A DNA stretch of 64,000 nt from Henckelia pumila (Eukaryota > Streptophyta > Magnoliopsida > Lamiales > Gesneriaceae). The notes below the pieces were generated by a model. It saw only the letters and a list, made by a program, of their open reading frames with translations. It made no database searches and had not been told where the DNA came from. Below, piece after piece: positions 10,218 through 63,400 of this stretch. Both the position numbers and the translations under genes were made by a program. Location of the stretch: positions 140,632,062 through 140,696,061 of the forward strand of contig NC_133123.1 in assembly GCF_033568475.1 (NCBI RefSeq). The letters are read 5' to 3'. Numbering within the stretch: the stretch's first letter is position 1; every line of letters begins with the position of its first letter.

Positions 10218-12325
10218 CTTCGATATATTTTCAGACACGTGAGTTTCAAACTAGCTAGATTATTAGTTGCCACTTGGAAATGATCTTTCCTTTGTCTCTC
10301 CGCTTTCATTTTTTTCCTTCATTCACTGGAAAGCAAAACAAAAACAAAAACTTTGTTTTGGACTGATATATTTGCCTTGATGCACTTTAAGCAGAGTATA
10401 TGGCTGTTTGACCTGTTGCCTCGGCGCAAAAGTTGCCAAATGGTGGACCTGGTTTCTGGGCCGTTTAGGACCTGAAGACAGAGACACAGAAATTGCCTGT
10501 TTTAGAAAGCAAAAGCAATTTAACGATGTCGATTGCTGATCTTCCCTCTATAAGGCATTGCGAAATCCACCAGTAGAGATACATTTTCGCTTAGTTTTGA
10601 TTCAACCTGTCACTAATAGTCTAATACCTCGAGCTTTATGCTTTTGAAAATTCATTTTAATGGCTAAGTGGGATGAATCTTGAATATTTACCATTTTAAA
10701 CAGCCAACACTGATGCAAGTTTCATGGTGTTTTCTTATGGATTGTATTGTAGTATCAACACTAATTTTTTTATGTAAGGCTCACATTTATTTAATCCATT
10801 ATACAGCTGGTAAATCTTGTTGTTTCGTGTTGTCAATTATTTTTCTTGACGATAGAGACATTGAATCGACGTTACCCATTACATAGTAGGAAATTTGGCT
10901 TTTGTTGTCTGTATATGTCTGGGGTGGCACCAGAAAGTGACTGAAAATTTAGAACATCGGAAGATTGTGTTGGTAGTATCGTACATTCTTCAGCAATTGA
11001 CAATGTTTTTATGCATGGCTACGCGTTAAGAATATTCCTTGGGCAGCCACCTATGCAAAGAAAATTTATTTTTTCTACTTATTTGTTGTCATATTATTAT
11101 AAAAATAAATTGCAGCTCCAATCTTGTCTGATCGGTTTTCATTTGCGTGACGTTCGTTTCTTGCACCAAATATTTAGTGGAAATAACTAACAAAATGTAA
11201 TTGCAGGAAAAAAAAAAAAAAAAAAAGTCACACAGAATTTATGAAAAAAACAAAATAAAATATTCATCGTGTATACCTGTTCTGTTCTGTTTCTAACACC
11301 AAATTACAACCGAATCCCATGTTATAAAATACACAACTCTACCAACTATTGAAAAACCTGTGCTTCTAATGGAGATTTAAGACCAATTTTTAGGTCCACC
11401 AACAGGTGGTTATGCCTTTAAAACTCTAAGCTCTAACAGCCTATGGTGTGACTAACAGCATCTACAAACAACTGCAGACCAACCCTTTTGGCAGTTTTGA
11501 CAAGATTGATTATTTTCTGAAAAAAGTTTCGAGGCAATCTTGGGCTGGTAACTTGTCTCCACGTGAGAAAGGGGGCATAATTGAAAAGGAATATATTGTT
11601 TTTATATGGATTTTATAGTCGGGTTGGAGTGTCATAATTGTTATCTTTTCTGTTTATTGAATGATAATATTTTTATTTGGTTGGTGTCATTGTTTCAATG
11701 ATAAGGAGGGTTGGTGTTTTTGTACTGGTGCAAGTTTTGTCTCCTTTTGTTGAGAAGACTTCGCCTTTGTTGAGCCAATTTGAGCTCTTTTCTCGATCGC
11801 TCTGTTGGGAATTCCCTTCTTCCGAATTCAAGTTCCAAGCACGGGAACTCTTTTTCAGGTATTTTTTTTGTATCTGGGCTTTTTCTTCTTTCTTTTTCTT
11901 GTTTGCGATGATCTGAGTCTATTCAGTGTTTTAGATGCTTTTTCTTATGTGGGTCATTGTTGGTTGTCTGAATTGCATGTTAAAAGTGAATTCGTCATGG
12001 TATCTAACATTCGATGAAACAAAGATGAATTCTTGTTGTTTTAGGTACCTCTCATATGAAAACTGAGTTCAGATATTGTATTTATTTCTTTTAAATGTAG
12101 TTTGTGTTCTTTTTATGTCTTCTCTGAGCTTGTTTCCTTCAAATTTCAGTTTTTGACTGTCTGGTAAAGGTTATATGACATTATTACAGCTACCACTGTT
12201 TTTTTATGTTTTTTCCTTTGGGGGGTTTACATTAATTTCCTCTATATAGTTTGTTTGATCAGCTGTGATGGTTTGCATTCCGTTCGGTGTTTATCAACTG
12301 GCACCAGAAACTTTTGAAGAAAACA
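10218..12325. other. RsmI-like 3' flank and BELL-gene leader region
   Basis: The first part probably holds the 3' untranslated region of the methyltransferase; a poly(A) run lies near 11208-11226. From about 11680 the sequence is likely the leader of the downstream BELL gene. A good donor (TTTCAG|GTATTT at 11858/11859) and an acceptor (GATCAG at 12257-12262) suggest an untranslated first exon and a leader intron of about 400 bp. No other gene is visible. Confidence 0.4.
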
Positions 12326-14665
12326 ATGGCTTCGTTTTATTCAAATGCGAGCAATGAAGAAGATATAATACCTACCGCGTATTCACTAAGTCAGAAGCTC
12401 ATTTCTTATCCTTCATCCGGCCTTCCTGATAATAAAGGATATGCGAGCCAGCCGTCTGTTTCGGAATCCTACCTGAATTTGTTGTCCGCTAGCTCTATAT
12501 TGGCTCATGACCATGTTGACAACAATTATGTACGAAGCAGTGGTGAAAGGACAATTATTCCTCCAACGGGTTTTCCGACGGATGTGCAGCAAGTTGATAC
12601 ACAGCTGAATTTCATGTGCCGATTTTCAGATTGTGAGACAGTAACGGTAAATCCCCATGCATTTACTGAAGAACTAGAACACGGCCACGGTCCTAAACAA
12701 AAATCACCAAGTCATGGCTTATGTCTTAGTTTGGGATCTCAGGAACAGTCACTGGATCAGATGACTTCGAATATGAATCAGTATGCGAACTCGAGTCTCT
12801 GTTCCTTGTTAAGTTCCCATGTTTTGCAATCAGAGGACCATATTTCTCAAAGAATCAACCTTAAGAATGTTGAATACCTGTCATTTGATTTGTCGGGAGG
12901 GAACCAAGATGCTGTCAAATACGAAACGAACAATTTTCAGAACTTGATTAGCTCCAAGGAGACAATTTCTTTGCCATTTCTACATCAGAGATCAGAATCT
13001 TCGGGCACATTGTGCCACTCCAAGTATCTGAAGGCAGCTCAAGATTTGCTAGATGAAGTGGTGAATGTTCATACAGCTCTAGAAACATCAGAAAAAGGAA
13101 AGAATAAAACTTTACTTGGTCCAGATGGATCAAAAGAGACAGGTGCGAGAGTGGGCGAAACTTCTGCTGAATTTCAAGAATCAACTACAAATGCACCTGA
13201 TGTTTCACTTTCACCCACTGAACGCCATAATCTGCAGAATAAGATGACGAAACTTGTGTCCATGTTAGAAGAGGTATGCCCATAATCTATGTTGTTTATG
13301 TTGTGATGTGTGCTGGAGCATCTTATAGTTAAATTTTATATCCACCTTGGCTTCATTTTGTTTTGTATAAGCTGTTTTCTTGCTCCTAATTTTCCATATG
13401 AGCGACACTAGTTTGCGAATTTCTTTGTTATTTGTTTGTTTTGTAGGTTGACAGAAGATACAAACAATACAGCCATCAAATGCAAGCCGTGGTTTCATCA
13501 TTTGACATGGTGGCTGGGCATGGTGTCGCCAAACAATACTCGGCTCTTGCCCTTCGAACAATATCCAGACAGTTCCGTAGCTTGCGTGATGCAATCAAGA
13601 AACAAATTCAAGATACCCAAAATAACTTGGGGGAGCAAGATGCTGATTTGCATGGTCAAGGAGTATTATCCCGTCTACGCTATGTGGACCAGAAACTCAG
13701 GCAACAAAAGATAGTTCAGCAGTTCGGTATAATGAGACAACCGTGGAGGCCACAAAGAGGCTTGCCTGAAACTGCTGTTTCGGTACTTCGTGCATGGCTT
13801 TTCGAGCATTTTCTTCACCCGTATGTTTTTTCTCCTATTATTACTTCATATTGTCATTAGGAATGACTCCCTGATGCTGCTCCTAACTCTAATGTTTGAT
13901 GGTCATTGCATAGTTATCCGAAAGACTCGGAGAAAAGCATTCTTGCGAGGCAGACGGGATTAACCAGAAGCCAGGTAAATACACATACGCCAGCAAAACG
14001 GTGCCATAGTCTAAAGATTAATGAATGCCTTAGCATGCACGGTGTTGTATCAAGTATCAGTTTTCATAAGTTTCTTAAATCAGGTCGCAAACTGGTTTAT
14101 CAACGCTAGGGTCCGGCTTTGGAAACCCATGATCGAGGATATATACAAGGAGGAGTTTGGGGATGCAGAAACTGAACCCAAATCTTCACCAGAACATACA
14201 CCGCTGACTCGAGAGATCTCTGCACTTAAAGGCACAGAGGAAGGGCTGCAAGAAAGCTTAATATCGGCAGCTTCAGATGGCAAACGCTGGGGGCACTCCA
14301 TTGAGTCGAGGCACAACGTTTTTTCTAGTGCAGAGTTGAGCTATGAGGCGGGAGTTTTTCAAGAAAATGAGATTAATTATGGGTTAACTCATTTGCAGAA
14401 ACAACACATTAGTCAAGATTCAACTTCAAGACACAATGATATGATCTTGAACGGTTCAATGGGAAATCAAATGTCACTTGCTCTTGGGTATACTCGTAGC
14501 CAGAGAGATTCTCAGCCAATATCGGTTGAAAATAAATTGAAAGGCAACGGTGCTGAATCTTCTTCTATGGGAGTGGACAAATTGGAATACTATGATGAGG
14601 ACACCATAAATCATCAGCCCAGGTTTGTTAATCCGAACGGCCAGTTGTCTGATTTTGTATTATGA
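12326..14665 (+). CDS. BLH3/10-like: BEL1-like homeodomain protein (BLH3/BLH10-type)
   Basis: Four coding exons, 12326-13273, 13447-13820, 13914-13974 and 14084-14665, give 654 aa. The SKY motif ([16 protein letters not shown]) begins near residue 231. The BELL domain starts near 317 ([24 protein letters not shown]). The TALE homeodomain (about 418-480) has the extra PYP loop (HPYPKDSEK) and helix 3 with [20 protein letters not shown] motif near 590 and a final LSDFVL resemble the ZIBEL-like tail of the family. BELL proteins pair with KNOX homeodomain proteins and act in the nucleus on meristem, leaf and flowering genes. The ATG of [10 protein letters not shown] is the first ATG in frame and has good context. 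Exon borders match those of the second BELL gene downstream. The family is certain; the BLH3/BLH10 assignment comes from the opening sequence and from gene order. Confidence 0.95.
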
Positions 14666-16653
14666 TACCTTTTAGGTGGATTAGAGTTCAAAGACAGCGA
14701 ACACATACAGGAAATATAGAGATCATGTTTGGCTTCTCAAATAATTTTGAGTGAAACAATAAAGAAAAGGCCCGTATAAAGTATGTATCTTGTGCTGATA
14801 CTAGATACTCCATTGTATAGCATGTAAAGTCCAACCAACATTGTTTGTAAAGCATATATTATACCTATATTTGTATATTATATGGAACCGAAAGCGAGGA
14901 AGGCGTCTATTAAAAAGAGTAAGTGATATTTTTCTTTCTTTTCATGAGCTAAAATAGTGCCTGGGTGGAGTATATTGCTTCATTTTCCGATAATTCACAG
15001 CTTTTATTTGGTTCATCATATTCATGTATACTGCAGAGTATGCAGTAAGAACAATAGAATATATATTATAAAAGATGCATTCCATTCAATATTGAGATGA
15101 CCATTTCTAACATTGTCAGTGACCGCTGCAAAATTGTGTCTTTTTAACTTTGTCAACTGTAATAATTATTGTCATGAACAGTTAAATGTCTTGTGCAGTT
15201 TCTTAATAGAACCACAGTGTGCAGTGATGGTGTATCCGCAGAAAGTAAAATTTTCTTTGATTCAGAATGTGAAAATTTGACATAACATGAGTTCTTTTAG
15301 TTTTTGTGAAGATTTTAACGCTTCTGATCTCATTCATATATTGGATATGAAATCTAACCCCACAGGATCTCTTTTACTTCTGAAAAAATTTCTCATGATT
15401 GTCACCGAAATCTTGATTCTTGTGGTGGAGAATGAATCGTGGCTGTGCGATTATGAACTTTCCTTTTGAAAATCACAAGGCCATTCAGATTGTTCAGACA
15501 CTTTAATCAGTGAGTGGGCCTCGGAATTTAATAAAGAAACAAGACAACAAAGCCAGAGGCTGGCAATGGTACAGACAAGGATACAAAAATGGAAACCATT
15601 ATTGTTCTAAAACCATCCAACCCTTTTTATCCAATAATGGATTACCAATCTCATCAGTACAACAAAATAAAGAAGGGTTTTAAATTTTAATCAGCCTCAT
15701 TAGTTTTAAGCGCCAATGATCTTAGTTGTCCTTAAATAAGGTTTATAGATGAACGCGGAGCGCGATTCTGTGCATGGAGTCCAAGCTCAGTTCCGAATTT
15801 TGTATACCTATTAATTATGGTTCTGAAATTGCAAAATCTAGATAGATAAGTAAGTAAGAGTTTCAAAATATTGAAGCCCGCGTGATCCAAAGACTATAAC
15901 AGCACTGGCGGTAAAACTCCAGATATAGTATAGAATAATATTCCAACGCGACCTACTTTATCTAAGCAGAAACTATTTTATCATATTGCCTGTTTTCTTC
16001 TGTGTGATTTGTCGTATGATAGATACGATTAGGTTATGGCAGTGCTTTTTGAGTGTCCCAAAGAAATGTAACAGCAGCCATTAAAGCTGAGAGATTGGAG
16101 GAAAAGCCCAAAGGGATCAGTTTTTGGCCTATGTTCCATCTCCAATGATTCTCATCATGTCTCACCACCATTAGATAATGTGAGACCATCGCATTTTAAT
16201 GAAAATTCACTTGATGATCGAAAGTCTAAAATTTCACATCCAACGAGGAGAAACAGTGAAACACAGAAAAAAAAAATATTTTTTTGGAACTTTTCCCACG
16301 CAAGTTTTTACATGTCTAAAAGTTATGCTTCTTTTATTAAGTCCTGACAGAGGTCTTTTGATCAAGCTTTTATAGCTTACAGCTTGCTGATATAGTGTAC
16401 TGTTGACTTCAGAAAACAAAAGAAGAAAAAGAAAGAAAGAAAGAAGAATAATCGCTTTCCTATTGAATGAACTAAAGTCTTAATTAAAGAGGTATTTTTG
16501 TTCTTCACATTTTGCCAGCCCGTTTCTTCACTTTCATAAATCATATCCAAAGGAATGTCTGCTTTAATATTCGTGCAAGTTTTCTGATCAAGATCAATAC
16601 TTTTTCCCAAACCCAACAAAAATCAAACCACATAATCTTGCAAAAGTTTGGAA
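14666..16653. other. Intergenic between the two BELL genes
   Basis: About 2 kb holding the 3' flank of the first BELL gene and the promoter/leader of the second. A purine-rich GAAA repeat lies near 16418-16444. No credible gene is seen. Confidence 0.4.
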
Positions 16654-18453
16654 ATGGTATCAGAAGACTCGCCTTCAAACTCAAATTCAAGTATTCTACA
16701 TCAGTTCTTAGTTTCAAACTCCATAGCAGATCAAAATCAGTTTGAAAACCAGCATTTTGTTGCTTGTGGAACACAGTCTCACTCTCTACCTTCAAACATT
16801 CAATCTCTTGGTGAAAGAATGCCTAGATATGTAGACCTTTTCCATGCCCCACAACTATCAAATGAATCTGATTTAAGACATGGTACAAGGTCTATGAATC
16901 TTCTTGAAACATCAGCAGCCCACCAAGCTCAGAGGCTCTCACTTTCTTTAGGCTCAGTCATGGATCCTGGTTACATCATTTATAATAATCCCGGGCTCGA
17001 CAGAACCACAAGTGATTATTGTTTTCCTGGAACTGGATGTGCTTTTATCCCATCCGCTGCAATTGGAAGCTCAAAGTACTTGAAACCAGCTCAGACCCTC
17101 CTTGAAGAAATGGTTAATATTGGAAGCAAGGAAATTGATATCAGCAACAAGAAATATGTGGAGAAATTATCCCGCCGCAGCAAAAGTGCACCTTTCGGGT
17201 ACAATGAAGCACTTTCTGAGAAGCCTGGATCTTGTGTTCATCTTCTAAAGCTTCTTGCATTCCAACAAGAGGTTAATCCAATCTTTTAAGCATTTCTACG
17301 TGCCATGTTCATGATTATTAGTTGCATGATTATTCTCCTTTGACAAGAAAGAGCTGACTTCTCAATCAAAGCTGAAAAGATCAGTCATTTTTGCTGATAT
17401 CTGCTCAAATCAGAGCTTGGTTCGTCTCATTTGAACTTGATGTCGGGATATAGGAGCCAAAGCTCTAGTTATGACTTCAGTTCAAGAGCTTTTCAAGAAA
17501 TTACATTTCCTCTAAGATCAGTTGTTTTATTTGCCTTGATTTTGTCTCAAATATGAAATAAAACATAATGCGAACAAATGTTCTACTCTAGCATTTGGGA
17601 CTAGTATACACACTCCATTTTCTTACCCTTCTTCCATGAATTTAAGGTGGAGAGAAGATACGAGGAATACTATAATCATATGGAGGAATTGGTGTCATGT
17701 TTTGAGGCAATAGCAGGGGTAGGAGCAGGAAAATCTTACACCGCTCTTGCTCTTCAAGCCATGTCCAAACACTTCTGCATCCTAAGAAACACGATATTGT
17801 CTCAAATCCGTGCCACGAAACGAAAGATGGAAGCAGACATGCCAAGAATCAGTTCAAGATTAGGTCAACTGAGCCTGCTGGATCAAGAAAGTAGACATAA
17901 CAGAACCACACTGCAGCAGCAGCTTGGAATCACGCAGAGTTGGAGGCTGCTTCGGGGATTGCCGGAGAACTCTGTGATGATTCTACGTGCTTGGCTTTTC
18001 GAACACTTCCTTCATCCGTACTCATCTCGACACCTTAAATATTGCATATTGAGTGACATACATTTTCAGTGACAATATTTGTGAATGGTTTATATTCTTG
18101 TTTCCAGGTATCCTAATGATTCTGAAAAGCTTGTGTTGGCATCTCAAACAGGCCTGTCAAAGAACCAGGTGAACTCCTTTACTTTCAAATGGGATTTATG
18201 CAACTATAGATTTAGCATTAGAAATCTCCATTTTAGGTGCCATTTTTATGTTGATGATTGATTTTTGTAATCTGATATGAGGAATTATCTTGAAATGGTT
18301 GTGGTTCAGGTTTCTAACTGGTTCATAAATGCCAGAGTCCGTCTGTGGAAGCCCATGATAGAACAAATGTACAAAGAAGAATTTGGTGACTCTTCCATTG
18401 AATCCGATGAATTGCAGACTTCTACTGCAGAGGGAATAGGGGATTTATGTTGA
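16654..18453 (+). CDS. BLH11-like: BEL1-like homeodomain protein (BLH11-type)
   Basis: Four exons, 16654-17271, 17647-18017, 18108-18168 and 18310-18453, give 397 aa. The protein opens [18 protein letters not shown]. The SKY motif [22 protein letters not shown] lies near residue 139. The BELL domain starts near 207 ([24 protein letters not shown]). The TALE homeodomain follows ([27 protein letters not shown], then [15 protein letters not shown]). Intron positions and phases are identical to those of the first BELL gene, so the two share descent. This copy is much shorter, with a short N-terminus and only about 30 residues after the homeodomain and no ZIBEL-like tail. Short tails are usual for BLH11-type proteins as I recall them. 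By family it acts as a nuclear DNA-binding partner of KNOX proteins. The second-exon donor GTACTC is weak but is the only one in frame. Confidence 0.93.
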
Positions 18454-24200: not shown

Positions 24201-27200
24201 ACTTGTTTGGGACCTGTTAGAAATTCAAGATCTAAGTTTCGGTGTTTGACAAACTTAGACATCAACTGAGCAGATCAGAAGAGAAACAGAACAGATAAGT
24301 TATCGAGCAGATCAATGGAGGCAACAAAGAAGCCAGATCAAGTTCAACGATGTCTTGAGATCAAATCAATTATCATAATTGATCTGCACATAGTATAGAT
24401 CAAAGCCACATTCAGACCGAATGATTCTCAGAAACAGAACAGATCAAGAACTTATGGAAGAGCCTAGAATGTCAGAGAGCTTTTGTGCTAAAAGACAAAA
24501 GGCAACAAAAGAAGATTTGAACGTTGCCAACAAAGAACCATAAAGTCAAGATCTAAGAGCAAATTAAGGAGACTTGTCGACACCTTAACGGATACTTTCT
24601 AAAGGCTATAAATACAAGAAGAGAAGAAAAGAAGAAACAGAGGTTAAGAAGCGTAAGAAAAAGAGAGCTACAGAAAGAGAAGAGAATACACGATCAGAAA
24701 TATCGAGTTGTAAGATTATATCAGATCAGTTGAGTGTTCTGTAAAACACTACCTTTGTAACAAGAAACAGACAAGGGCTGTGTTCTTGAGTGTCTAGGAG
24801 TTCTGAGATTAGGCAGCAGTGTAAGTCCAATCTTGGATCGGATCTGTGCAAATTGCTTGTATAAGATCAAAGTCTTCTAGAAAAGAGTGAATCCTTTCGA
24901 GGTGGAAGAAGGGGTGACGTAGGAGATTGAGCTCCGAACATCCAGAAACAAGTCTTTGTGTTATTTCTTATCTGTCAAACACATTCACTCACCTCACGAA
25001 TTCAACCAAGCCATTTGATCTGTGCTCGATCTGTTAGTCAATTTCTTCCGCACTGATTGATTAACATAGACACACGAGAAAGACAAGAGATCATTTACTA
25101 ACCCATCTGAACTCCATATAATTGAGAAAGATATTTTCGATCCTAACAAGTGGTATCAGAGAGAGGTACTTTCTCGTCTTTGAACATATTCAAATGGCCG
25201 CATTTAGTGAGATTGCTAAAAGCTTCTGGTACACCACCGTGGACAACTGTACTGCCAAAACTATTGAGACATGCTCCACTGCTAAGGATCTTTGGCAGCA
25301 GTTGATCAAGCTTGGAACAGATGAGGAGGCTGAGCAGATCAGGAGTCCAATGATTGAAGATCTTAAAGAACTCTGCTGCTCAGATAGTTCCAGATCAAAT
25401 GATGATGAGAGCACAAGTCAACCAATTCATCCATCTGACTTACTCGAACGTTGCTCAACTGAACCAATCGCTTTTATTGAGGAATCTTGCCATCCAGTTA
25501 GCTCATCAAGCTCTGATGATTATGAAGATAGCTGCCTCATGGCCAAAAGTGACCAACCACCTATCAGCAATCAATCATCAGATCAACTCTTCTCCAGTGA
25601 ACAGGTATTTGATTTCAACTCAGATGAATTTACACGAAAAGATTTAGCAAATGCATTACATGACATGAGTAAAGAGTATCAACGACTGTGCTTAGCATTT
25701 GAGGAAGTTAAGGCCAAGAAAAATGATTTGTCGGACTGCTCAACTGAACCCAATTGGGAAACATCAGTTGAGAAAATCAGTCTAGAAGCAGAGATTGCCA
25801 AGCTTAAGACAGAAATTGATAAGCTACAAGTGGAAAGTCAGCAATTAAGATTAGAAAATTTAAGACTGACTGAACTGAACACCACCTGGAATAAGTCATC
25901 AGCATTGTTAACTGAGATGCAAGAGTCACAAAAATCTTTTGGAGATAAGACATGTCTCGGATTTAGTGACAAGGACTGCAAACAAGCTGAGCCAATTACT
26001 CAATCCTGTCTGGACAAGAACACTTCAAATTATGTGAATTTGTCAAGTCCAGCACGATATATGAAAATATAGAACCTGATAATCATGTCAGTTCACCTAT
26101 ATCTCAACCAAAAACTCTTTACAATCGAGGATTGGGATATGTGGAACCAGAGAGTTCTAACTCAAGCCAGATAAAAAATAGACCAGTTCGTTCTGGATAT
26201 GGTCAAGCAAGAGAAGACTCTATGAAGGTACAACATAGACCACCTTATTTCAAAAATAGATCCGTTCAAAAAAGATATTGGAGGCCTAACTTGTACAATC
26301 AATCTAGACAGACATATCCAATGCACAAACGACACAATGCATATCATATTTATCATTCACATATATATCACCAGCACACACGACACAATATACAAACTTT
26401 ATGAGACACTTTCAATGATCGACCTGTTAGATTAATCAAAGCTTGGGTTCCTAAAGGACTAATCCATCGAGGACCCACATAAGATATGGGTACCATAACA
26501 TATTTTTATTTGTATTTGCAGGTGACAAGTACTGAGAAGAATTGAGAAAGGAATTACAGTACAGCAAACTTCAAAAAATTACAGAGGATGTTAGAGACAA
26601 CTATATCCAATCTCCACCGTTCATAATGAAGTTTAAGATGTTTTAAAGTTGCTGTCCAAATTTTAGCTTGATCTGACGGCTAGATTGTAAGATATGATTT
26701 TTTGAAAATTGTCGCTCAGTAGAACAAAAAAGTAGCGCGATAGTGCCCCTCAATAGCGCGATAGCGCTCCTAGCACTCCTTGGAAGCGCGATAGCGCTCC
26801 TAGCGCTCCTCCAAAACGCGATAGCGCTTCAGTAGCGCTCCTCCAAAGCGCGATAGCGCTGTTGCTATGAAAAGCATGCGAATCCGCATCAATCTCGGAG
26901 ATTAGATAAAGAACTGTGAAAAATAAAAGCTCGATGGGATTTCATCTACATATAAAAGAGATTTTGAAGATCACAAGAACATACCACACAACACAAAATC
27001 TGGAGAGAAACGCAACAAATTGAGGGGGAATGAAGATTCTCTCTGGCTTCTTAATTGAAGAAGAAAGCAGATCAGTCGAGAAGAAGAATAGAAGAACTGA
27101 GCAAAGCAGATCAATGTATCTAATAGGAACCAGATCAACTTGGAGGTAACATATCAACTCGAAGATACAGAGCAAGAGATAAGAATCCAGATTAAAGTTG

Positions 27201-31100: not shown

Positions 31101-31410
31101 TTCTAATGTTCATGCAACATGTTTGCGTTAAAAGCTAGTATTAATTAATTGTACAGTGTGTCAGATGCCTAACATTAACAATCGAGATAATGAGCTTAGC
31201 TTCTCTGATTGAACTAATTAATTAGGTATTAGTACATTTATTTATGCCATTATTATACACCAATAATTACTTTATGTCAATAAATAAATAAAAGTAAAGC
31301 CAACAATCACACAAGTGGAGAAACCTTGAAATTAATATACAAACAACTCCTCTATTTAATTTATGTCTGTCTGGACCAAGATTCAACATACACCCGCAAC
31401 CATACATTAA

Positions 31411-31452
<42 letters not shown>
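31411..31452. repeat. (TTA)n microsatellite
   Basis: About 13 uninterrupted TTA/ATT units. Confidence 0.9.
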
Positions 31453-31453
<1 letters not shown>

Positions 31454-31687
31454 TATTGTTATATAATATCAATTCAGAGGACCCCCTAGACGTATCAAAA
31501 AGCCAGTCTCCAAATCTTTCTTTGACAGGCTTTCTTGCTCTCATTCAATGCATTTTTCTAACAAAGACAACAAAATTAAATGACAAAGTAACCAAATTAC
31601 AATCCCATTCACAAATTCATCAACATCACTACAAGATGAAAATGTACTAGAAAATAAAAAGATACATTATTTATATTTTTCCCCTTC

Positions 31688-32206
31688 TCAATAATCAAAG
31701 ATCTCAGCTGAGGCCATAATGGGGTGTTGATTTATAAGTGCCATCGAGTTCCATGAATTTCCCAAGAAAGTATCAGCCAAGTCCAGATACTGACACTCCT
31801 CCGCCTCAAATATGCAGCTCCATGCGGCGGCGGCGGCCGGGATGGCGGATGCGGCGGCGGCGTAGGAATTTATGTGACCCAGAATTTCGTTCAACGAATG
31901 AAGTCTTTGGCTGAGCTCCAGCATTTGAGCCCTCAAGACTGAGTTTTCTGACTCGACATTCAAGAAGTGTTGTGTGGTGATATTTATATCGCTCAGAATT
32001 TGGTTATTTTCTTTCTTGATCTGAGCCACCTGAGCCAAAAGATCATCCAAATGCTTCTGTTTTCTCATCCTAGACCGCCTGGCAGATTCCCGGTTCGATT
32101 CCATCCTCTTCCTCTTCTTCTGATCAATCACCTGCACGAAATCTCCCTCTGAATCGGACCTTTGGATCGAGGGTGAGCCGGAGGAGTTCCCACTTGAAGA
32201 AGCCAT
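31688..32206 (-). CDS. bZIP44-like: S1-group bZIP transcription factor
   Basis: This intronless gene encodes 172 aa. The basic region (about residues 30-50, KKRKRMESNRESARRSRMRKQK) has the invariant N-x7-R signature NRESARRSR. It is followed by a leucine zipper through about residue 107 (heptads at LDDLLAQVAQI...LSDINITTQHFLNVESENSVLRAQMLELSQRL). S1 bZIPs (bZIP1, 2, 11, 44, 53) heterodimerise with group C bZIPs and control amino acid and sugar metabolism. The C-terminal half has an alanine-rich tract, YAAAASAIPAAAAAW, from a GCC-type triplet run. I use the ATG at 32206 as the start because it begins MASSSGNSSGS and lies in the expected place after the upstream ORF. The 5' leader holds the family's sucrose-control peptide. 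Gene order points to bZIP44, but bZIP11 and bZIP2 types look much alike. Confidence 0.95.
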   Translation of the reverse strand: MASSSGNSSGSPSIQRSDSEGDFVQVIDQKKRKRMESNRESARRSRMRKQKHLDDLLAQVAQIKKENNQILSDINITTQHFLNVESENSVLRAQMLELSQRLHSLNEILGHINSYAAAASAIPAAAAAWSCIFEAEECQYLDLADTFLGNSWNSMALINQHPIMASAEIFDY

Positions 32207-32326
32207 TTTTATGTGTTTTCCCACAAAAGGGTCCTTGATTTTTTTAATCGTTTCGTGGATGATAGTTTACGATAAGAATTAGCGATCGATGTGTTTGTTT
32301 ATTAACCAAGATTCAACTATTCTAAT

Positions 32327-32452
32327 TCATGAGAAAACGTAGAACCAGTAAAGGAATACAACAGAGAAAGATTGAACAAGATGAGTCCTGCGTCTGAGCG
32401 AGGAATTGATCATATAACCGGACCTGAGAATCTCACTGAGTACAGAAAACAT
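32327..32452 (-). CDS. Sucrose-control upstream ORF (SC-uORF) of the bZIP gene
   Basis: In the leader of the bZIP gene, ending 120 nt before its ATG, is a 41-codon upstream ORF. Its peptide begins MFSVLSEILRSGYMINSS and contains LRRRTHLVQSFSVVFLYWF, ending YVFS. This is the conserved sucrose-control peptide known from S1-group bZIP mRNAs such as Arabidopsis ATB2/bZIP11. During translation it stalls ribosomes when sucrose is high and so represses the main ORF. The conserved C-terminal half is intact. An ATG overlaps its final codons (TCATGA) and opens a 2-codon frame. Translation control in this species is an inference from the family. Confidence 0.95.
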   Translation of the reverse strand: MFSVLSEILRSGYMINSSLRRRTHLVQSFSVVFLYWFYVFS

Positions 32453-32587
32453 GAATCTTGAACATCAAGAACAATACCTGCACCATCAAGATTTAATCTT
32501 CATACAAAAAGATTACAGGTACAAGAAATTTCTTGATTTTTGGGCAGAGTAACAGCCAGAAAGAACACAAAATGAGAAACAAAAGAA

Positions 32588-32614
32588 TCAGCAGAACCTC
32601 CACAAGAAAAGCAT
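32588..32614 (-). promoter_or_regulatory. Additional short upstream ORF in the bZIP leader
   Basis: An 8-codon frame (MLFLWRFC) lies about 135 nt upstream of the sucrose-control ORF. Further short frames follow, one of which (from about 32486) overlaps the start of the sucrose-control ORF in a different phase. S1 bZIP leaders typically carry several upstream ORFs. Confidence 0.45.
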
Positions 32615-32706
32615 TAAAAAAACACAGAATGAAAGGGGAATAAGCGTAGAAACAGAGTATCTGAAGAGAGGAGAGGAAGAGGTTTCAGAACATGGGGAAG
32701 GGGTTG

Positions 32707-32713
32707 TTAAATA
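32707..32713 (-). promoter_or_regulatory. TATA-like box of the bZIP gene
   Basis: The minus strand reads TATTTAA about 500 nt upstream of the main ATG. This would give a long leader of about 470 nt, as usual for this gene group. Confidence 0.35.
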
Positions 32714-33726
32714 GAAGGAAATGGTGGGCTGGAAATATTAAAAAAATAAATTTAATAAATACGCAGTCATGGTTGGGCACAAATAGGTGTGGAAAAGAAA
32801 CCAAATCGTTTGAATTCTATTTTGATTGACATTCCTTTCTCGAAAATTGCCGGAGACCGTCTTATTACAGGTTTTGTGAGCGAAATATATATTTTCCTTA
32901 TAAATAGATGTTTTTTTTGTTGGTTATGTTACCAAAAAAACGTGGTGTAATATGTGTGATTTTAGTGAAGCATGATTTTTTATGTAAAAAACGTGTAAAT
33001 TGAGTCGATTCATATCATAAATAGAGATCTCTAAGATGGGTGTGTATGAACACCAGTGTTGATGTTTTGGTTCTAGTTTGACACCGAAAATTTATTCTTT
33101 TAAATCAGATAAACTAAAATTAATTATTCAACAATTATAATATGAAATAATTATATTTATTTGAAAAATAAATAAATATCATGGGCTAATTTTTGTCGAT
33201 ATAAAATTGGTGACTTCGATCCTATCCCATGTGGTAGGTGAAACTCTATTATTGGTCCAAATTATGGGGGCCCCACATCAATCTTGATAATTGCGTCGTT
33301 GTGCCTGGAATATCTGAATTCCTAATTTCATTGGAGTAAAATGGAGTAATCTATGATATGAATCATCATATCTGGTCTTGTTTCCACTTTCCAGTTATTC
33401 TCCAACTCATTTCTATCTAATCTATTTTTCTATTTTTTCTGGCTTGGCTAGGTGGGATAGCCGAGCCATTCCCTTTTTTTTTTTTTTTTTTTTCTGATAC
33501 CAATCCAGGGTATGTTGCTGCCATTTTGAAAGTATTAAGAAGCACCGAAGTAATGTCTAAACCCAATGATTTAAAATAAAGATTAAAGGATCCAAGAACA
33601 AGTAAATCCATTTTAATTGTCATTGAACTTGGTAAAATGAAATGGTTGAATAATTAAAAAATGAGATTATTCAAGAATACACATTGAATGCTGAAATTAC
33701 GCTTTAATAGGTGCAATTGTTATAGC
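32714..33726. other. Upstream region of the bZIP gene, no gene seen
   Basis: AT-rich intergenic DNA with a T20-like run near 33474. It includes a stretch (about 33213-33290) related to the inverted-repeat complex downstream. Confidence 0.35.
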
Positions 33727-50285: not shown

Positions 50286-52725
50286 ATGGCTTCGCTTCAA
50301 GGCCCTGTTGTTTGCCCCGTAGTCGGATCAAAACAGACTGGAGTCTACTCAGCACATGCCAGTTCACCTTTGCTGAAAGATAAACTCATTAAAGGTGGGC
50401 TATGGGGGCTCAAAGGGCTCCAAAGTGTCAATACAAACACGGGTTTTCGACCGAATTTGAGGCAAGGCATATCTATTCGGTGTAGTTTCAGTTCATCCTC
50501 AAATGGTAATGGTAGCATGGCTGGAAATTCCAATGAAAATGATGCTGATTATGTTAATTCTAGTGTGATTGAAGCTGGTATGTGGAGTTTATTATTGCAC
50601 GTAATTGTATACCTTATTGAAATCAGAAAGTTTTGGTTTTTCCGTCATTTGACTTGTTATGATTTGCATGTGTTTGGGGAATAAAAGATACTGATCTATA
50701 TGAAAGCTCCTACATGGGAGAATTATTCTTCTAGTGTATATATGGCGAACTCCTGTAATTCTATGTGGATTTTAATATGATTGTGGAAATTGGACTATAT
50801 AAATCTATTGTCTGCTTATTATTTATGATATGATAGTTGAGGTGAAAAGTGGCTCAGAGGGTTTCATGATCAAGATGAGAGATGGTGGGCACTTGAGATG
50901 TGTCCATAACAACCCTCATGGAAGTCGTTTGCCGGATTACGCTCCACATCCTGCAATTGTTCTGAAGATGGAAGATGGGACCGGCCTACTACTCCCTATA
51001 ATAGTTTGTAAGATTTTAATATGACCAATTTTTTTTTTCTGACTACAAATTTGTTTTAATCTTTTATTGTCTCATTATTCTTGATTCTTATGGCGTTCAC
51101 TACAGTGGAAATGCCAAGTGTGCTACTAATGGCAGCTGTACGCAATGTTCAAATGGTATGCTTCCCTGCTCTTTCTTATTTCGGTATCTGAATTCAACGG
51201 ATATTTTTGGGTTTTGGTAAGATTCTAATTTTTCCATAAATTTTCAGGCTCGGCCCACCATGTATCAAGTGGTCAGAGAGATGATTGAGAAGATGGGCTA
51301 TACAGTGCGTTGACAATACAAACTATTGTTATTTTCATTTTTATGAGCATTTCAGCAATGAATTATCTTCTTTTTCAGGTGAAGCTTGTACGTATCACCA
51401 AGAGGGTACACGAGGCATATTTTGCTGAGCTGCATCTTACAAAGGTAAGTGATTGAATTACAAGTGTTCTTCTTAGTTCTCACCCTTGTTAGTTTATCAG
51501 TGGATTAATTATTTTATTCTGATTGAAGTTGGATAATGAAGCGGAGAGTGTAAGATTTGATCTCCGACCCTCGGATGCAATCAATATCGCAGTGAGATGC
51601 AAGGTAATATAAAAAGTTACATTCATTTTAAGATTAAATGGGGTAACTCATATAGCCTACTACTTTATTACCACAGGTGCCAATACAAGTGAACAAATTC
51701 TTGGCTTACAACGATGGCGTCAAGGTTATGGAGACGCCCAAGGTGTCGGTTAGGAGCTCTATGTCTGATGGCAGATTGTTTACTGAACTTGACAGGTACG
51801 AATGATGTCCTTAAGGAACTTGGAACTAGCAAGCATGGTTTCAGAGCTATGATTTTTTGCTGGAAGAACTCGAATTTGAATCAATTGCATTAGTTCCAAA
51901 TTGAATAAGATTTTCTTAATGTAGACCTACTGGGCAACCATGTATCGATACAAAGGAGTTTGATCTAGTACGGAATATGATGATTGCTGTGGTTGAGGAA
52001 CGTTACCGGGATGCAGGTACTTTTTCTCCATTATATTCACATTTGCATTAATATATCCAATAATTTAACGGGGCAGGAAACAATATTAACGTATATGGGG
52101 GGCAAATTTTGCATTTTCAGAAATCTTTTATTTGGATTTTGGGGTTAGGCAAATAAATTCTAAGTGAACATGCATGCTGGCAACCAATTGAAGAGTAACA
52201 CTGTGTATGCTATGTCTATGTTCAAAAGGTACATTGAGCACTCTGCTGTGTTACCTATAAAATTTCTGTGTGAGACTTACATGACCCAAAGATTTATTAG
52301 TAGAGTAAATTCATATTTCCCAGTATGCCATAGCAAATGTCGAGCGCGTCGTATAAATTTTTTTATCTTAAATTGCATGTAAACGGTCTTTCAACCAGTG
52401 CTATTGCTCCAAAATTGTTGACTGGACAATGTTTATCCATCTTGTCCATTTTCTCTTTGAAACTAAATGTTGATCACTAAAGTTGTGCTTAATAAGTTTG
52501 TAGTCAGTTAAGTGTGAGGTTCTTTCTTGTCTTCTATGTTGAGTCCACCGTGTTTCATCGCACCTCCTCAGATACAGCAGACATGGATGAATCGAAACCA
52601 TCTTACATTAACTTTTAATTTGCTGAGAAAAGTTTGTGGCTTGCAACAGTTTTTAATGTCAATTTTGTGCAGCTTCGTGGAGGGATAAGCTGAGTCAACT
52701 TCGAACGAAGAAGAATTGGCCATAG
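50286..52725 (+). CDS. BBD1-like: Bifunctional nuclease in basal defence response (BBD)
   Basis: Nine exons join in frame: 50286-50577, 50837-51007, 51106-51155, 51248-51304, 51379-51444, 51529-51603, 51677-51795, 51925-52016 and 52673-52725. They give 324 aa, matching the usual length of about 325. The bifunctional-nuclease (DUF151) domain runs from about residue 130 to 250, with HPAIVLKMEDGTGLLLPIIVLEMPSVLLMAA, YQVVREMIEKMGYTVKLVRITKRVHEAYFAEL and FDLRPSDAINIAVRCKVPI. A UVR-like C-terminal part (EFDLVRNMMIAVVEERYRDAASWRDKLSQLR) ends the protein. BBD proteins degrade RNA and single-stranded DNA and support callose-based defence and ABA responses in Arabidopsis. The N-terminal 90 residues are Ser/Gly/Asn-rich. 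All introns are GT-AG. Confidence 0.95.
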
Positions 52726-60437: not shown

Positions 60438-63400
60438 ACACGTTATCAGCACGATCGCTTGAAGGTTCTCTATATTTTCCGACGATCCAAAATACAAGAA
60501 GAAGTCAAAAATATTCAACAAGTAAGAATAATTATTTTATTGTTTATTGTGTATATATTTAATATATATTATCATGTTATGAAAAAAAAATTAGTTTTTA
60601 AAAACTTGTTATAAATCCTGGGAGGATGTTAAGACGACATCCCACACTTCCGGTAAGGGATACGACAAGTATAAAAGCCTCTAAGGTTTTTAAACAATAA
60701 CGTGATATGATATATGTATATATACTAACTATATCAATATATAATTTCATGTTATTATATAAGAGATTGTCTAGGACACTGACCTTATAATAACGTGATA
60801 TGATATATATTTTATTGCGTATATTTAATTATGATTATCATTATACGCATCACATGATTATCACGAATTTTTATTCAACACATAATCATTTTTTTCTTAC
60901 CCTCAACGGTCACAAACGGTCATAAACGGCTAGTTTTTTGCCTATAAATATGTTCACTCAAACTCATTTTCAATCACACCAAAATTCATTCTTCATCTCA
61001 AAACATTCTCCTCGGTTTTTTTTTTTCGAAAAAGAAGATGGAGCTTTTGGCTTTTCTAAGGATATTTTTCATAACGACTATGATCATCATGTTCACGAGT
61101 TTTGTACTCACCAGCGATTTTTCACCACCTATTTTTTCTCTATTTGTATACGCACTTGTAATCTTCGTTTATCCATTATTTTGTATTGTCATATTAATGG
61201 AAATTAACTAATAAAATGTATTGTTATTTTTCTAGTACCACCATGTCAAATTTGGCAAAGATTGAATTCGTTGCGCTCGATATCACTGGAAAGAATTATA
61301 TGCCATGGACTCTCGATGTAGAAATGCATCTTGAGTCATTGGGTCTAAGTGATACCATCAAAGAAATTAATATATCAACCTCACAAGATAAAGCAAAGGC
61401 AATGATTTTCTTACGCCGACATCTTGATGAAGGGTTGAAATGTGAGTATCTCACAGAAAAAGACCCAATGATTTTATGGAAAGGGTTGAAAGAAAGATTT
61501 GAGCATATAAGGGAAGTGATACTTCCGACCGCCCGTGATGAATGGAATTCGTTGAGAATCCAAGACTTTAAAAAAGTCAGTGAATATAATTCTGCAATGT
61601 ATCGAATAGTCTCACAATTAAAATTCTGTGGACTTGAAGTCACAGAGATGGAAATGCTTGAGAAAACATTTTTCACTTTTCACGCATCAAATATAACTCT
61701 ACAGCAACAATATAGAGTGCGTGGTTTTACGAGATATTCCGAACTCATTGCATGTATTCTTGTGGCGGAAAAGAACAACGAATTGTTAATAAGAAATCAT
61801 CAATCCCGACCCAATGGATCAACGACATTTCCTGAAGCAAATGTCGTAATGAAAAATGAAAATCAAAATCAAAGGCATAGACCAGATTTTGGTCGTGGAC
61901 GAGGTCGAGGACGTGGGCGTGGACGTGGACGTGGACGTAAAAATGATCGCGGTCGTGGTCGCGGCCGTGGATATGAAAATAATAGAGATAGTTACTTCAA
62001 TAACTCATCTCAAAAGAACGTCGCGAACCACCCACCAAAAAGGCAGCATGAAAACCCGAGTGAAAATGAAAATCACTCAAAAAGATCTGAGAGTGTTTGT
62101 TATAGATGTGGCACTCCAGGACATTGGTCACATATTTGTCGAACCCCTGAGCATCTATGTAAGCTTTATAAAGAATCGACAAAAGGGAAAGGAAAAGAGA
62201 CCAATTTTGTTGAAAATAGTGACCATTTAATTGGCTCAACTAGTTTCAATGCTGCAGATTTTTTGAATGATTTCGAAGACATTGATTAAAATATTGGTGG
62301 GACTATATTGTAACAAATTTGTATTTTTAATGCATTCTTGTATTATAAAGCATGTTATATTTTGCATTTGTATTGTAATTAATTTTTCTTTATTGCATTT
62401 TTTGTGAAGTTTGATATGGAAAATGCTATGAGCAAACATGGAAATAATATCATGGAAATTTTCATACCAGATAGTGGTACAACACACACTATTCTGCGAG
62501 ATGAAAGATATTTCTTGGAAATAAAACCAACAAAAATAATGGTGAATACCATATCAGGTCCTGTAGACTTGATTGAAGGTTGTGGAAAAGCACATTTTTT
62601 GTTACCTAATGGTACAAAATTTCTGATAAATGATGCTTTATATTCACCACAATCGAAAAAAAATTTGTTGAGTTTTAATGACATATACTCTTATGGGTAT
62701 GATACTGAGACGATAACTGATGGAAATCAGAAATATATGTGTCTTACCACATATAAATCAGGAAAGAAATATGTGGTTGAAAAATTATCAATGCTCCCTA
62801 CTGGATTGCATTATACACATATAAGGCCAATCGAATCAAATATGGTGGTTAATAGTTCTTCAATATTAACAAATTGGCATGATCGATTGGGACATCCTGG
62901 TTCAATAATGATGCGAAGAATTATTGAAAATACGCATGGTCATCCATTGAAAGACCAGAAGATCTTTCAGAATAATAAGTTTCAATGTAAAGCATGTTCT
63001 CTTGGAAAACTTATTATAAGACCATCATCAGCTAAAATCCAAACAGAATCACCCATATTTCTTGAACGCATTCAGGGTGATATTTGTGGGCCAATTCATC
63101 CACCATGTGGACCATTTCGATATTTTATGGTATTGATAGATGCTTCTAGCAGATGGTCACATGTATGCTTATTGTCAACTCGGAATGTGGCATTTGCAAG
63201 ATTAATGGCTCAAATAATAAAATTGCGGAATCAATTTCCAGATTATACAATCAAGAAAATAAGACTTGATAATGCTGGAGAATTTACATCCCAGACTTTC
63301 AATGATTATTGTATGTCAATGGGAATCACTGTTGAACATCCTGTAGCCCATGTTCATACGCAAAATGGATTAGCTGAATCATTGATTAAACGTCTACAAC

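Follow-up and report, generated by a model that had tools for sequence, protein, structure and literature searches.

Sucrose-control upstream open reading frames (SC-uORFs) in the leaders of S1-group bZIP genes have a long published record, reportedly going back to Rook 1998 and Wiese 2004, so what a further instance offers is annotation rather than discovery. Among the closest systems are those of Arabidopsis bZIP11 (ATB2) and tobacco tbz17. The Arabidopsis leader is 547 nt long and carries uORFs of 18, 42, 5 and 18 aa (PMC2738917). Within its SC-uORF, Ser-29, Ser-31, Leu-35 and Tyr-39 are thought to be essential for sucrose repression, and the position of the stop is described as invariable in angiosperm SC-uORFs, yet sucrose repression was also seen with gymnosperm uORFs that have neither the two serines nor that stop position (PMC4960570). 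Another paper puts the SC peptide at 28 residues (PMC8795868), and when the internal AUG was replaced by a stop, the reporter was active at high sucrose (PMC2738917). With regard to mechanism, two papers (PMC8795868, PMC11120861) cite Yamashita 2017 for stalling by the nascent peptide at the stop codon under high sucrose, and in wild-type plants a distance of 50 nt proved enough for ribosomes to reinitiate (PMC3020687). For uORFs of this sort, paused ribosomes are described as giving a degradome signal at position -16 from the stop (PMC9305500). In tobacco, sucrose repression by the SC-uORF of tbz17 was demonstrated by luciferase and GUS assays (PMC3310857).

The DNA considered here is a 64,000-nt stretch of the 885-Mb genome of Henckelia pumila (C4:140632062-140696061; hereafter the window), and one ORF in it can be assigned from its sequence to conserved-peptide uORF homology group 1, the sucrose-control uORFs seen in the leaders of S1-group bZIP genes. 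An earlier note on this DNA had placed a 41-codon minus-strand ORF 120 nt before a bZIP ATG, and its coordinates, translation and TGA stop all proved exact (Table 1). The anatomy can be read directly from the DNA: the spacer between the uORF stop and the bZIP ATG covers 32207-32326, a second in-frame ATG at +39 yields a form of 28 residues, and the 172-aa bZIP lies in one open frame that matches PF00170 at 41.4 bits against a cut-off of 27.6. When searched against the PDB, the bZIP protein had one weak match (TGA7, E 0.0069) and the uORF peptide had no match at E up to 10; nor does any Pfam family match the uORF peptide. A structured RNA in place of a peptide was considered and rejected, as there was no Rfam match at gathering thresholds either in 31400-33600 or in the whole window.

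Table 1. Leader elements and main ORF of the bZIP gene, numbered from the first letter of the window.
Feature	Position	Strand	Remarks
SC-uORF, long form from first AUG	32327..32452	-	41 codons + TGA
28-codon core + stop, from internal in-frame AUG	32327..32413	-	published SC peptide has 28 residues (PMC8795868)
Main ORF, single-exon bZIP of 172 aa	31688..32206	-	PF00170 match
Out-of-frame 17-codon uORF	32433..32486	-	overlaps first SC AUG; stops ahead of second SC AUG
Two-codon uORF, ATG AAT TAG	32322..32330	-	ATG overlaps SC-uORF stop as ATGA
8-codon upstream uORF	32588..32614	-	no counterpart in L021 leader
5-codon upstream uORF	32486..32503	-	no counterpart in L021 leader
Core-promoter-like block, starting CTATTTAAC at 32714	32703..32714	-	picked by eye; common to L021 leader

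Farther upstream, a CT-rich stretch follows the CTATTTAAC block both in the window and in the leader of a paralogous gene, L021 (C1:79.18 Mb), and another TATA-like site is found 454 nt ahead of the SC AUG. The block, which L021 shares, would put the start of the transcript on the upstream side of the uORF, at about 32680. The possibility of a leader intron with its 3' end directly ahead of the first SC AUG was also considered; it is disfavoured on inspection by eye, since L020 lacks the AG that L017, L021 and the window have at that point. Within 32486-32503, the stop of the five-codon uORF and the AUG of the next uORF have one base in common (TGATG).

How often this arrangement occurs was gauged by two peptide searches of the 885-Mb genome, one with the 41-residue peptide of the window and the other with the short-form peptide of locus L013. 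The window peptide gave eight matches: apart from itself, there were six with E between 1.1e-16 and 3.8e-4 and L013 at 0.096, with L010 missed; the L013 peptide gave nine matches with E no higher than 10, one of them L010 (E 7.4e-4). The union of the two amounts to nine places, and all nine sit less than 400 nt upstream of a same-strand bZIP_1 match. The SC-uORF leader is thus intact at eight bZIP loci of this genome, the window included, and decayed at a ninth (L035 1480-2040, C3:190.83 Mb), a relic in which the SC-uORF and the bZIP both look broken: the frame from the first AUG stops early, and the C-terminal frame is recognisable but has no AUG. From the side of the bZIP genes, the scan took in 19 distinct loci besides the window (numbered L001-L021, L020 and L021 being wider versions of L008 and L006) out of 49 bZIP matches in the genome; seven of the 19 carry an SC-uORF and 12 do not. 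Against the 600 nt upstream of those seven bZIPs, the window peptide had BLOSUM62 scores of 183, 144, 140, 102, 95, 80 and 56, as compared with a mean of 29.3 and a maximum of 56 for shuffled peptides in the same stretches (420 scans), the lowest real score, that of L010, being no higher than the shuffled maximum. Best scores were 27-36 in the upstream parts of eight of the 12 loci without the uORF, and 29-44 in a six-frame scan anywhere in all 12. The shuffled-peptide scans and the whole-genome searches together rule out a chance ORF.

The eight intact copies come in two forms. Four are long (41-42 residues: the window, L021, L020 and L017), each with a second in-frame AUG giving 28 residues, and stand 120, 143, 143 and 236 nt, respectively, from the bZIP ATG; the short ones (22-30 residues: L009, L010, L011 and L013) have spacers of 76, 60, 147 and 148 nt. 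Counting back from the final residue, all eight have Ser at 13 and 11, Leu at 7 and Tyr at 3, which are the spacings of Ser-29, Ser-31, Leu-35 and Tyr-39 in the 42-residue Arabidopsis peptide (PMC4960570, PMC2738917), and in each copy the stop falls three residues past the key Tyr. The window uORF thereby resembles uORF2 of Arabidopsis bZIP11 in the distances of its key residues from the end, its stop position and its internal AUG, and the leaders are alike in being long and in holding other uORFs; it has 41 residues rather than 42, a comparison made by published positions, and the other uORFs of the window leader, which from 32614 down have 8, 5, 17 and 2 codons, are unlike the Arabidopsis set. 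The likeness to tobacco tbz17, by description (PMC3310857), lies in a second uORF that is conserved within the leader of an S1-type bZIP gene, function having been assayed in the tobacco case. L021 shares with the window the last 30 residues, which are identical, and a similar leader, and departs from it in its 143-nt spacer, in five of the first 11 residues and in having fewer uAUGs. The earlier reading of this ORF as an SC-uORF is supported by where it lies, by its peptide and the key residues in it, by where it stops, by the second AUG and by conservation among the paralogues. Given the gymnosperm uORFs that repress with sucrose although they lack the marks (PMC4960570), the marks are a fit to this function rather than a proof of it. 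The string SVVFLYW was not found in print in the literature searched, and the peptide was aligned among the copies of this one genome.

We consider it very probable that this is the SC-uORF of an S1-group bZIP gene and that sucrose-dependent stalling on it lowers bZIP output, the stalling, the sucrose dependence and the reinitiation being carried over by analogy from Arabidopsis and tobacco. Scanning ribosomes would initiate at either of two AUGs, the first or the internal one, and so produce a peptide ending SFSVVFLYWFYVFS. With sucrose plentiful, the nascent peptide would hold the ribosome at the UGA stop, and with a ribosome held there few others would get to the bZIP AUG 120 nt downstream; with sucrose low, the ribosome would terminate and some would reinitiate. 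The spacer, being longer than the 50 nt reported to suffice (PMC3020687), allows for reinitiation, and the other uAUGs ahead of the SC-uORF could lower its use.

It is tempting to speculate that there is also a device at the level of the RNA, over and above the peptide, in which the AUG within TCA-TGA and the out-of-frame uORF would together favour use of the 28-codon form and catch again, or trap, ribosomes released from the stall. We regard this as unlikely. The terminal Ser is encoded by TCA in six of the seven copies with a Ser at the end (Thr takes its place in the eighth), as compared with a TCA share of 18% among Ser codons in the main ORFs of the same eight genes, and inner Ser codons are mixed among the copies; the probability is 0.001 for the one column and about 0.02 allowing for 18 columns. 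A preference for TCA-TGA is nonetheless weakly supported, since the copies share ancestry, 18 columns were examined and three others lean to one codon as well (GTT 5/5, P 0.008; CTC 6/8, P 0.018; TTC 8/8, P 0.020). The AUG across the stop, as ATGA, occurs in five of the eight copies and is missing from L021, L009 and L017; in L021 the stop is TAA, so that, unlike in the window, no AUG overlaps it. Three of the four long forms (window, L021 and L020) have the end of the out-of-frame uORF at +20, a point between the SC AUGs, and in L017 it is at +43, beyond the second AUG. Overlap among uORFs as such is not new, as uORF2b of Arabidopsis has been described as overlapping uORF3 and uORF4 (PMC1896003).

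Selection on the peptide, and not only on the DNA, is directly observed in the comparison of the window with L021. In the last 28 codons there are eight base changes and all eight are silent (dS 0.60, dN 0), as against a dN of 0.19 in the first 13 codons, so that the earlier claim of a conserved C-terminal half and a variable N-terminus is borne out; the bZIP ORFs of the pair have a dS of 0.65 and a dN of 0.20. At the proportion seen in the main ORF (0.18 per site), the probability of zero replacements in 64.7 sites is about 3e-6. Over the eighteen-codon tails of all eight copies (28 pairs), pN is 0.156 and pS 0.686, with a pooled pN/pS of 0.23, and of the last 15 residues, eight do not vary across the intact copies. 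These observations make it quite improbable that the uORF is simply an obstacle to scanning that represses constitutively, whatever its peptide sequence and whatever the sucrose level. Such an obstacle would be in keeping with the several further uAUGs of the leader, which would cut translation irrespective of sequence, but it would need neither a core peptide that is kept while silent sites change nor the key residues and stop distance that are alike in all eight intact copies. Strong selection on the peptide, taken by itself, would also fit with a stable small protein that has a function of its own in trans. We consider this highly unlikely, however, as all nine places precede a bZIP and no lone copy of the peptide away from a bZIP was found among the best-scored candidates of the genome searches, the constraint is concentrated at the C-terminus beside the stop, and at the relic locus the uORF and the bZIP have both decayed. 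That the ORF is an alternative N-terminal exon of a longer bZIP protein, as short ORFs directly upstream of genes sometimes are missed exons, is scarcely credible given that all eight intact copies stop three residues past the key Tyr and that the spacers to the bZIP ATG vary from 60 to 236 nt.

For the gene behind the SC-uORF, the assignment to the S1 group rests on the uORF itself and on comparison within the genome, and the gene is probably of the bZIP11/bZIP2 type. Of the 20 distinct bZIP loci examined, 16 went into a tree (four without the domain-cutting motif were left out; all rows are from this same genome), in which the window is sister to L021 (82/77). Seven of the eight rows lacking an SC-uORF group together as a clade (89/93), and L002, the remaining one, sits far off on a long branch. 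Rows with an SC-uORF cluster, with two label changes as compared with a shuffled mean of 5.7 and none of 500 shuffles as low, although they are not recovered as a single clade, and of 200 bootstrap trees, 3% show one label change. A search of the 90 kb around L021 for 14 ORF pieces from the window gave matches to six: two of a kinase gene, the bZIP, and three of two POX-domain genes. The AP2, peroxidase, GT8, CRAL_TRIO and AAA pieces, those of the gene at 50286-50684 and one POX piece had no match in those 90 kb. Between window positions 12269-41417 and L022-L030 (C1:79146001-79236000), the order of the kinase, bZIP and POX genes is the same but reversed, so that the pair most likely arose by duplication of a block. 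Arabidopsis bZIP2 and bZIP11 presumably have as neighbours peroxidase, MAP kinase, SEC14-like, AAA ATPase or BEL1-like genes; the window holds all of these kinds of domain, where the names MAP kinase and BEL1-like are our reading of Pkinase and POX domains, and this would support orthology to the bZIP2/bZIP11 pair. The two adjacent POX-domain (BEL1-like) genes of the window lie at 12269-18072 on the plus strand. There are also retroelement gag-like ORFs at 61198-62289, with a CCHC zinc knuckle, and at 25122-26404, the latter judged by eye.

As an intact SC-uORF, the copy in the window is an ordinary one, a further member of a family already described. Among its paralogues, the short-form SC-uORF of L010 (1827-1895) has changes within the core, from VVF to QLL and from W to L, and keeps the four key residues, and the bZIP ORF behind it is intact; a changed core ahead of an intact bZIP indicates that the motif is not rigid. 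The eight intact copies, L010 being one example, thus provide a set of natural variants for probing which residues the sucrose response requires.
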